Part shown: positions 6,832-46,988 of the stretch, piece after piece
Position numbering within the stretch: the first letter of the stretch is position 1
How the letters are laid out: each line of letters opens with the position of its first letter
Source: Gemmatimonadota bacterium
GTDB lineage: Bacteria; Gemmatimonadota; Gemmatimonadetes; Gemmatimonadales; GWC2-71-9
Assembly (NCBI GenBank): GCA_009692185.1
Contig: SHZT01000002.1
Span: 221,455 to 285,454, forward strand
Direction of reading: 5' to 3'
Length of the DNA: 64,000 nt
Made by a program: the position numbers and the translations under genes
The notes under the pieces: generated by a model
The model's input: the letters and a program-made list of their open reading frames with translations, nothing else
Database searches by the model: none
What the model was told of the DNA's origin: nothing

Positions 6832-7545
6832 TTAGACCACGACCGGCGTCTCGCCGCGGAAGGGCATGCCCATCTCCCGCAGCAGCGCCATACCTACGTC
6901 GTCCCTGCCGGCCGACGTTACGAACGTGATGTCCATCCCGTGAATCGTCTCCACCTTGTCGTAGTCGATCTCGGGAAAGACCAGCTGTTCCTTGATTCCC
7001 ATGGTGTAGTTCCCCCGGCCATCGAACGACCGCGTGGGCAATCCGCGAAAATCGCGGAACCGCGGCACCGTCACGCTGATGAACCGGTCGAGGAACTCCC
7101 ACATCCGCGCCCCGCGCAACGTCACCGACGCGCCAATCGGCACGCCCGCGCGCAGGGAAAAGTTCGAAATGTCCTTCTTGGCCTTGTTCACCATCGGCTT
7201 CTGGCCTGTAATCGCCGCGAGCTCGTTGACCACAGCGTCCAGCACCTTGGCGTTCTTCGCCGCCGCTCCCGCGCCCACGTTCAGCACGATCTTCAGCAGG
7301 CGGGGCACTTGGTGCGGGTTCGTGAAGCCGAACTGGCGCGACAACTTCGCCTTGACTGTGCCCCGGTAATGCTCCCGGAGGCGCGGCTTTGGAAACGACC
7401 CTGTGTTCGGGTCCTCATCAATCGGCAGCGCCGCCGAGACCTTCTCAGCCTTGGACTTCCCCCGGGGCTTCTCGGTCTTTTCGACCTTCGGCTTGGGCGC
7501 TTCGGCCTTTTCGGCCTTGGGTTCTTTCTCTTTCGCGTCCGCCAT
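6832..7545 (-). CDS. rplE: 50S ribosomal protein L5 with charged N-terminal extension
   Basis: 237 aa; bacterial L5 is about 180. The L5 core begins near residue 54 ([20 protein letters not shown]) and contains KIVLNVGAG, the [18 protein letters not shown] loop, and the C-terminal [25 protein letters not shown]. Residues 1-53 are Lys/Glu/Pro/Ala-rich ([16 protein letters not shown]) and probably disordered. The long start lies 3 nt after the rplX stop, which supports it; no good internal ATG precedes the core. L5 contacts 5S rRNA and the P-site tRNA at the central protuberance. Confidence 0.95.
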
Positions 7546-7548
7546 GCT

Positions 7549-7932
7549 TTATCGCGTCCTCGGGATGGGCTGTCCGGACTTGACCGCCAGCCGCTCCATG
7601 CTGCCGTCCTTGTTGACCCGCCGCCGGATCCGCGTCGGTTCACCCGACTTGGGGTCCAGCAGCATGACGTTCGACAGGTGGATCGGGGCGGGATACTCGA
7701 TGATCCCGCCTTCCGCCTGCGGCGTCGCCCGCTTGTGCTTCTTGATGATGTTGACGCCGTCCACCACGACCCGGTTCTTGCGCGGCAGGACCTTGAGCAC
7801 GGCGCCTTCCTTGCCCTTGCTGTCGCCCCGGATCACCCGGACCTTGTCGCCCTTGGTGATGTGCGTCTTGAACGCCCGCGCGATCGCCTCGGTGCGGCTG
7901 CGCCGCGACTTCTTGTAGACGAGCGGCTTCAC
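7549..7932 (-). CDS. rplX: 50S ribosomal protein L24
   Basis: 127 aa from a GTG start that abuts the rplN stop. It is an assembly initiator binding the 5' end of 23S rRNA. The KOW motif is seen in [23 protein letters not shown], followed by [20 protein letters not shown]. It is slightly longer than the usual 100-110 aa because of an N-terminal basic stretch ([16 protein letters not shown]). Confidence 0.97.
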
Positions 7933-8301
7933 TTAAATGACCTCCGGCGCCAGCGACACGATCTTCATGAACTTCTTGTCGCGCAGTTCCCGGGCCACCG
8001 GACCGAAAATGCGGGTCGCCCGCGGTTCTCCCTCGTCGTCGATCAGGACGGCGGCGTTTTCGTCGAACCGGATGTAGCTGCCGTCGCGGCGGCGCGTTTC
8101 CTTGGCGGTGCGTACCACGACCGCCTTGGCCACTTCGCCCTTCTTCACCGCGCCCGTGGGCAGGGCATCCTTGATGGCCACCACCACGATGTCGCCCAGG
8201 CCCGCGTACCGGCGCTTGCTGCCGCCCAGCACGCGAATCACCAGCGCTTTTCGCGCGCCGGAGTTGTCGGCGATCCTGAGTATCGATTCCTGCTGAACCA
8301 T
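7933..8301 (-). CDS. rplN: 50S ribosomal protein L14
   Basis: 122 aa, the canonical length, starting [20 protein letters not shown]. It sits at the subunit interface (bridge B8 region). The [13 protein letters not shown] and FDENAAVLI motifs are present. The start is preceded by GAGGG seven bases upstream, and that sequence lies inside a palindromic repeat (8302-8339). The mobile-looking element therefore seems to supply the ribosome-binding site. Confidence 0.98.
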
Positions 8302-8339
8302 CTAGATCCCTCGCTGCGCTCGGGATGACCGCTTCGCGG
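8302..8339 (-). repeat. REP-like palindrome filling the rplN-rpsQ spacer
   Basis: The whole 38-nt spacer consists of two short inverted repeats. On the mRNA strand a CCGC-GAA-GCGG hairpin comes right after the rpsQ stop, then ATCCC...GGGAT arms enclosing GAGCGCAGCGA. The second half matches the widespread intergenic motif of the form CATCCCGAGCG-CAGCGAGGGATC that I recall from many bacterial genomes. The GAGGG in its 3' arm is 7 nt from the rplN ATG. Confidence 0.75.
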
Positions 8340-8606
8340 TCACTTCGCCCGCGTGACGACTTCGACGACGCGCCACCGCTTGGTCTTGGACAGCGGCCGC
8401 GTCTCCATGATCCTGACCGTGTCGCCCACCTTGGCGTCGGTCTCGTTGTGTGCGTGCACCTTCTTGGTACGCGTGATCTGCTTGCCGTACAGCGGATACG
8501 CGAACTGCCGGGAAAGCAGCACCGTTGCGGTCTTCTGCATCTTGGTGCTCGTCACCACCCCGGTACGCACCTTCCGCCGCGCGCGGTCCACAGTTCCCTC
8601 GGTCAT
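8340..8606 (-). CDS. rpsQ: 30S ribosomal protein S17
   Basis: 88 aa, normal length, OB-fold. It is a primary 16S rRNA-binding protein. Motifs: [20 protein letters not shown], then [36 protein letters not shown]. The start overlaps the rpmC stop by 4 nt (ATGA). The gene downstream, rplN, is separated by the palindromic repeat. Confidence 0.98.
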
Positions 8607-8827
8607 GCCTTCGTCCTCTTCTCCCGCAGGATGGTCTTGAGCCGCGCGATATTGCGCCGCACGATCCGGAACTGCGACGAGTTCTCCACCGCCTCGGTGG
8701 CGGACCGGAACGTCAGGCGGAACCGGGCCTCCTCCAGCCGGGCCAGCTCCTCCGCGACTTCTTCGACGGACAGCTCGCGAACCTTCGCGTTGTCCACCGG
8801 CTTGGTCTCCGCATCATGCAGCGCCAT
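8603..8827 (-). CDS. rpmC: 50S ribosomal protein L29
   Basis: 74 aa, a long-alpha-hairpin protein near the exit tunnel that helps form the trigger factor/SRP docking site. The core [29 protein letters not shown] and [14 protein letters not shown] match the family. The first about 14 residues ([14 protein letters not shown]) are a small extension. It overlaps rpsQ by 4 nt and lies 3 nt after rplP. Confidence 0.96.
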
Positions 8828-8830
8828 GGC

Positions 8831-9244
<414 letters not shown>

Positions 9245-22491: not shown

Positions 22492-22525
22492 AAAAAAAGA
22501 GGCACGGCTCACCGCCGTGCCTCTT
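22492..22525 (-). terminator. Intrinsic terminator of the LVIVD gene
   Basis: On the minus strand a perfect 11-bp stem (AGAGGCACGGC pairing with GCCGTGCCTCT) with a GGTGA loop is followed by seven T residues. It begins about 30 nt after the LVIVD-repeat gene stop. It is nearly identical to the rpoC terminator at 24059-24092. Confidence 0.9.
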
Positions 22526-24058: not shown

Positions 24059-24092
24059 AAAGAAAAGAGGCACGGCGAACAGCCGCGCCTCT
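24059..24092 (-). terminator. Intrinsic terminator of the rpoBC operon
   Basis: Minus strand: 11-nt arms AGAGGCGCGGC and GCCGTGCCTCT (one G-T pair), loop TGTTC, then TTTTCTTT. It lies 23 nt after the rpoC stop. The stem differs from the terminator at 22492 by one base, although the genes are unrelated. Confidence 0.88.
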
Positions 24093-24114
24093 CTGTTTTA
24101 CGAGATACCTGGAC

Positions 24115-46304: not shown

Positions 46305-46640
46305 ATGAGTCATTTTGGGCGGCACGGGCGGCGGGCGCGGCGGCGGTTCGGAACGGAACTCGCGGGGCGCCTCGCAGCGCTACACGCGGAAAAACCTGAT
46401 GGCAACGGCGGAATCACCATGAATGGCAGCGCAGCGACCAACGGTCACGGGGCGGCGAACGGCAATGGCGCCAACGGCCACGCCGTGAACGGCAACGGAG
46501 CCCCGGCGACCAACGGCATCGCGCTGGTCACGCCGGCAATTCACGCCAGGGTCCTTCCGTTTGAGATCTCCAGCGACGAAACGGCCCTCGAAACAGCCCC
46601 CTGCGACGTCTGCGGCCGTCAGCATGGCCCTGCGAGGTGA
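46305..46640 (+). CDS. Small basic/NG-rich protein ending in CDVCGRQHG
   Basis: 111 aa. Arg-rich N-terminus (GRHGRRARRRFGTELAGRLAALH), then an Asn/Gly/Ala low-complexity stretch (ATNGHGAANGNGANGHAVNG), then LPFEISSDETALETAPCDVCGRQHGPAR. The CxxC-x3-H pattern may bind metal. AAGG sits close before the ATG. I do not recognise a family. Its 3' end lies within a 207-bp duplication and overlaps the next gene by 17 nt, so its original C-terminus is preserved only in this first copy. Confidence 0.55.
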   Translation: MSHFGRHGRRARRRFGTELAGRLAALHAEKPDGNGGITMNGSAATNGHGAANGNGANGHAVNGNGAPATNGIALVTPAIHARVLPFEISSDETALETAPCDVCGRQHGPAR

Positions 46641-46988
46641 CACGCCCGCCGTGGCGGCGGGCGATCCCGTTTCTTCCCCGGCTCCGGCGGCCACGAGCAC
46701 CCCCATGGAGATGAGCGCGGCGCCGGCCCCGGTGGAACCGTCGGCCGACGAAGTCCTGTTCCGCGCAGCGCGCGAGGCAAAGACGAAACGGCCCTCGAAA
46801 CAGCCCCCTGCGACGTCTGCGGCCGTCAGCATGGCCCTGCGAGGTGACACGCCCGCCGGGGCGGCGGGCGATCCCGTTTCTTCCCCGGCTCCGGCGGCCA
46901 CGAGCACCCCCATGGAGATGAGCGCGGCGCCGGCCCCGGTGGAACCGTCGGCCGACGAAGTCCTGTTCCGCGCAGCGCGCGAGGCAAA
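46575..46988 (+). repeat. 207-bp direct tandem duplication
   Basis: Copies 46575-46781 and 46782-46988 differ at one base only (T at 46652, G at 46859). 207 is 69 codons, so the frame of the TPR gene is kept and gains 69 residues. The near-identity points to a very recent event. Confidence 0.95.

Follow-up and report, generated by a model that had tools for sequence, protein, structure and literature searches.

The stretch of DNA analysed here (the window, 64,000 nt) carries a run of ribosomal-protein genes on its minus strand, in which rpsQ and rplN are separated by a spacer of 38 nt (8302-8339) that exceeds all other gaps among the neighbouring ribosomal genes between 7545 and 11712. In E. 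coli the junction of these two genes is the border between the S10 and spc operons. Read along the minus strand, the rpsQ stop codon TGA is followed by CCGCGAAGCGGTCATCCCGAGCGCAGCGAGGGATCTAG and then by the ATG of rplN. The features of the locus are as follows.

7933-8301, minus strand: rplN (ribosomal protein L14), assigned by Pfam; start codon ATG at 8299-8301, backed by alignment with relatives.
8302-8339, minus strand: spacer between rpsQ and rplN.
8304-8328, minus strand: REP-like palindrome with the 25-nt core TCATCCCGAGCGCAGCGAGGGATCT, imperfect, an exact match to the family consensus; the tag of this copy is GGTC.
8306-8326, minus strand: stem-loop 2, ATCCC-GA-GC-GCA-GC-GA-GGGAT, with 5 bp, a tandem G-A/A-G mismatch, 2 bp and a GCA loop.
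8308-8312, minus strand: GAGGG, which lies six bases 5' of the ATG within the 3' arm of stem-loop 2 and is the only Shine-Dalgarno (SD)-like sequence in front of rplN.
8326-8342, minus strand: stem-loop 1, TGACCGC-GAA-GCGGTCA, with a perfect 7-bp stem and a GAA loop; it includes the rpsQ stop codon TGA.
8340-8606, minus strand: rpsQ (ribosomal protein S17), assigned by Pfam; stop codon TGA at 8340-8342.

The two stem-loops adjoin and have one base in common. Outside their stems lie CTAG (8302-8305) and the internal mismatches; the original prediction, which had called the spacer entirely palindromic, was right about its being built of hairpins and slightly generous about the extent. A consensus scan for promoters or terminators found none within the spacer, and a search of Rfam with positions 7500-9000 gave no match up to an E value of 1, which gives no support for a known structured RNA. 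Elsewhere in the window two terminator-like hairpins that resemble each other, one of them GAGGCACGGC...GCCGTGCCTC and the other a variant of it, occur at 22492-22525 and 24060-24098, about 1.5 kb from each other, and a tandem duplication at 46575-46988 consists of two adjacent head-to-tail copies of 207 bp.

The palindrome next to rplN is a member of a real dispersed repeat family. Copies were found in 35 of 101 genomes belonging to its taxonomic family (at most 111 per genome, in G068, with up to one mismatch) and in 49 of 395 genomes of a phylum sample (at most 171, in G110, with a 24-base pattern and one mismatch), while a reversed control pattern gave no match. The exact 28-mer that includes the CTAG tail is present in 79 stretches of genome contigs from several phyla, most of them from Reyranella and its alphaproteobacterial relatives and the others from Gemmatimonadales, Gammaproteobacteria, Phycisphaerae, Acidobacteria/Terriglobia and Gottesmanbacteria; single matches in metagenome-assembled genomes could stem from misbinned contigs. 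Only 18 of 109 copies at loci of the taxonomic family fall inside a called ORF, the remainder being located between genes or at locus edges. As is typical for REP-like elements, the 25-nt palindrome family is thus short, dispersed, multi-copy and mostly intergenic. The copy at rplN stands alone and hence does not form a REPIN, for which an inverted pair is needed; such pairs do occur in relatives and in Reyranella.

The genome to which the window belongs (2.63 Mb, 30 contigs) is itself poor in the repeat. The 25-mer was counted twice, namely as the exact copy at rplN and as one diverged copy (C14:171182), and a looser core pattern matched at five places; the number of chance matches expected in the window at up to three mismatches is 0. 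Since the genome has only one further, diverged copy, the term widespread in the original prediction holds for the taxonomic family and for other phyla and not for the genome itself, and the count gives no sign of recent activity of the repeat here. The second copy (L002:1501-1525; C14:171182-171206) is in the other orientation, between genes for an ABC ATPase and a membrane protein, and encodes the final residues of the ABC ATPase; on the other strand it ends in ATGA, which appears to be the stop of the ATPase gene and the likely start of the membrane protein gene. Stem-loop 1 was rejected as a part of the repeat, having one other match in the genome (two mismatches) and being absent beside the other copies listed. 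The near-single-copy state would fit a dedicated ribosomal-protein leader, that is, a local regulatory hairpin with no repeat behind it, but the recurrence of the 25-mer within the family and across phyla largely refutes this idea, and as relatives lack the element at this junction and Rfam gave no match up to E 1, we regard it as very improbable; a sequence conserved at this site and nowhere else, which would have spoken for such a leader, is not what is seen.

The arms of the repeat covary. Using sets in which the core alone served as anchor (110 copies from family loci and 163 copies from other loci), we found the fifth stem pair to be C-G in 65, T-A in 26 and T-G in 11 of the 110 family copies. 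It was of the Watson-Crick type in 96 copies as compared with 55.7 on average and at most 68 in shuffles, and the second pair was paired in 99 as compared with 79.0 (maximum 88); since related copies were entered individually, these figures are not to be read as probabilities. In the family set the fourth pair barely exceeded all shuffles (104; highest shuffle 102), and the first and third pairs stayed within the shuffle range (73, highest shuffle 73; and 98, highest shuffle 99, respectively). The tag is predominantly TGTC (60 of 110 family copies), followed by CGTC (15), GGTC (7, as in the window copy) and CCTC (4); among 163 copies elsewhere, TGTC was counted 136 times and CGTC 17 times. TGTC and CGTC together account for 75 of the 110 family copies and 153 of the 163 others. 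With the loop left free, a GNA loop was present in 92 of the 107 copies from the family and in 157 of the 165 from elsewhere, many of which had been recruited with patterns that fix GNA.

These features recall the CGTC-tagged REPs, which, as described in the available text of Di Nocera et al. (2013; PMC3733652), have stems of 8-9 bp that start with A-T and then T-A, loops of 4-5 nt and the tail CCA, are found in many phyla and commonly in Alphaproteobacteria, frequently form inverted dimers, often have the tag changed to TGTC or CCTC, and lack a dedicated transposase. At the level of the family our repeat shares the tag (CGTC, or TGTC/CCTC), the A-T, T-A start of the stem, a short unpaired tail, the inverted dimers and the spread over many phyla. 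It differs in the stem (5 bp, a 2x2 mismatch and 2 bp), in the 3-nt GNA loop and in the tail, which is CTAG or similar instead of CCA, and Gemmatimonadota are not among the phyla named for these REPs in the text available to us. Because its stem and loop do not fit the descriptions of the four published families, we call the repeat REP-like and of CGTC type and do not place it in CGTC-1 to CGTC-4, a distinction that rests on the textual descriptions and not on consensus letters. Like the GTAG REPs and REPINs associated with RAYT genes, the repeat is a short intergenic palindrome often found in inverted pairs (as those elements are portrayed in the portions of PMC2817692 and PMC3116915 at hand); unlike them, it lacks the GTAG tag according to our tag census. 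Its loop-proximal GC-GNA-GC core has the form of the unusually stable d(GCGAAGC)/GNA DNA mini-hairpin, which the accessible part of PMC4686876, however, treats as a chemical object and not as a genomic repeat.

Genes with a Y1_Tnp domain were present in 13 of 22 genomes searched. None was found in six copy-rich relatives (G068, G118, G110, G099, G105 and G035), and at none of 29 Y1_Tnp loci did the element lie at the ends with up to four substitutions; one locus (L174) has two four-mismatch matches about 1.1 kb away. The Y1_Tnp gene of the genome itself (C17:25320) is not flanked by the element either; it is a lone gene amid short palindromes of another type, GCGGGCTGATAGCCCG (L083:1300-2150). 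Mobilisation by RAYT proteins is therefore unsupported, Y1_Tnp being missing from the six copy-rich relatives and never bounded by the element at the loci searched. No RAYT gene bounded by the repeat, as expected of a GTAG REP system, was found among these loci, which agrees with the lack of a dedicated transposase reported for CGTC REPs in the portion of PMC3733652 available. One exact 28-mer of the repeat is thus common to several phyla with no evident transposase. Literature searches returned no paper containing 15-20-nt strings of the element. Among the 11-mer matches listed, judged by title, most look like unrelated oligonucleotides, and one (PMC10117815) concerns rep-PCR repeats of Mycobacterium intracellulare. 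Combining REP or MITE with SD or RBS likewise yielded no report of such a case in titles and opening lines of abstracts.

Whether the palindrome at rplN was inserted or reflects an ancestral overlap, an alternative raised in the original prediction, was addressed by comparing the spacer in 49 relatives (50 loci including that of the window, from 52 rplN matches; G039 and G055 were left out). The spacer measures 2-19 nt in 39 of them and consists of 24-101 nt of other sequence in ten; none contains the element. In the same vein, the 3' end of the element followed by an rplN start within 20 nt was found in only one of 102 genomes of the family, that of the window (exact pattern, incomplete genomes included). 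Occurrence before rplN in this genome only marks a derived state and not a conserved leader, for which the same site should be kept in relatives. At the level of the genus the comparison rests on one other genome (L010), whose 101-nt spacer contains tandem GGGAAGA units in place of the element. Longer spacers of other relatives hold other hairpins or simple repeats, and the junction thus seems tolerant of insertions. One of them (L019, genome G002) has a hairpin, CGTTGCGAAGCAACG, with the same GCGAAGC core directly after the rpsQ stop codon, i.e. at the position of stem-loop 1.

In some relatives the native spacer itself closes with GAGGGATC or GGGGATCG (L034, L004), and part of the rplN SD could, judged from these sequences, be ancestral. 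Accordingly, one may imagine that GAGGGATC is the ancestral SD and that the insertion comprised only what precedes it, having occurred where the end of the element shares a few bases with the native spacer. The presence of GGAGGGATC before GTG in L034 and of GGGGGGATCG before ATG in L004 is consistent with this possibility. The copy at rplN, however, fits the family consensus to its final base, GAGGGATCT, so that a native contribution is not needed, and we consider it unlikely.

When the arm is masked, no comparable site is predicted for rplN. The best pairing with the anti-SD is -6.4 kcal/mol (windows containing GAGGG) and drops to -1.9 kcal/mol or weaker when eight bases of the arm are masked; a 16S-like 3' end with CACCTCC (one mismatch to the search pattern) is present in the genome. 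The claim that the sole SD-like match of rplN resides in the 3' arm of the palindrome is thereby supported, except that GAGGG precedes the ATG by six bases and not by seven. In strength and accessibility this SD is ordinary. Its predicted duplex energy is -7.4 as compared with a mean of -7.8 (sd 2.8) in the 49 relatives, and its opening cost is 9.6 as compared with a mean of 8.9 (sd 2.6).

It was also proposed that the hairpin might hide the SD. In its strongest form, such a switch would keep the SD closed until a terminating rpsQ ribosome or a factor opens stem-loop 2, which would couple synthesis of L14 to that of S17. The 44-nt stretch alone folds well (-18.7 kcal/mol, z -2.73, with two of 200 shuffles equally good), the two final G residues of GAGG are for the most part base-paired in the predicted folds of the contexts tried, and stem-loop 2 is favoured (P about 0.8) when the first 15 nt are held open in imitation of a ribosome at the stop codon. 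By contrast, the fold of a 101-nt context does not stand out from its shuffles (z 0.00), the inner pairs of stem-loop 2 have a P of only 0.17-0.76 in the unmasked contexts, where other pairings cover the SD, the opening cost is average, being equalled or exceeded in 21 of the 49 relatives, and the site is not conserved. Hiding of the SD by stem-loop 2 is thus possible according to the folding models and not distinctive; as a special trait it does not hold up against the relatives or across the several fold contexts, and a dedicated switch appears improbable.

Equally improbable, in our view, is that the hairpins act mainly on termination of rpsQ and that the placement of the SD is incidental. 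This notion builds by analogy on the ribosome stalling reported for E. coli REPs that lie close to a stop codon (at most 15 nt away, as cited in the section of PMC12306157 available). Stem-loop 1 includes the rpsQ stop codon and is predicted to be stable in all unmasked contexts (P 0.91-0.98); yet it is outside the repeat family.

Taking these data into account, we propose as a probable explanation that a dispersed REP-like palindrome entered the rpsQ-rplN spacer, that its 3' arm serves as the SD of rplN and that translation proceeds about as in relatives. One copy of the TGTC/CGTC-tagged palindrome with a GNA loop would have entered the spacer in this lineage of the order Gemmatimonadales, its right end coming to adjoin the rplN start. 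The purine run of the 3' arm GAGGGATCT is predicted to pair with the anti-SD at a good distance, by which the arm may have taken over from the ancestral SD or stood in for an equivalent sequence. On finishing rpsQ, ribosomes probably either unfold the hairpins or start anew at the SD of the arm, and rplN would then be translated about as well as in the relatives. Most simply, this was an insertion whose arm happens to make a good SD, and the case has the look of a neat accident at one locus, not of an element of a new kind.

The same arm was found directly before a supported start twice more among 109 copies at family loci, namely before an HslV-like gene (G003; Pfam Proteasome, and probably hslV to judge from its sequence) and before a protein kinase gene (G010); both start codons align with those of homologues in L220 and L270. 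Upstream of hslV the repeat was observed in two genera (L220 and L073; genomes G035 and G003), as a single copy in one and as an inverted pair in the other. A pattern search across the order gave matches in 36 of 288 genomes, most of which are not starts, and added as candidates with putative starts a dehydrogenase E1 gene (E1_dh, L278) and an OsmC-like gene (L302). In these two candidates and in the kinase case the arm is of the AAGGA type, and its predicted pairing is weaker (-2.6 kcal/mol, short anti-SD string). At the loci studied, the element is followed by RTG at 58 places, seven of which open a long coding-like frame, two of these (L280, L299) being read as N-terminal extensions. A gene in the same orientation follows 44 copies; for six of them its start is within 15 nt, and three of the six (L211, L227, L238) were read as over-extended ORF calls. 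These numbers do not allow the claim that copies lie at SD distance from starts more often than random placement would give.

A broader view would be that the family is a portable ribosome-binding site and that insertions next to starts have repeatedly become the ribosome-binding sites of important genes (rplN, hslV, dehydrogenase E1). The conserved 3' arm (GAGGGATCT or GAAGGATCT) being itself an SD, insertions just before starts would survive. We regard this generalisation as tentative and rather doubtful; if true, the very arms that pair in the hairpin hand control over the translation of essential genes to a dispersed repeat. With rplN, nature offers a clean case of an essential ribosomal-protein gene whose only SD appears to come from a dispersed palindrome, and the SD-like character of the arm provides a testable reason why such insertions may be tolerated.
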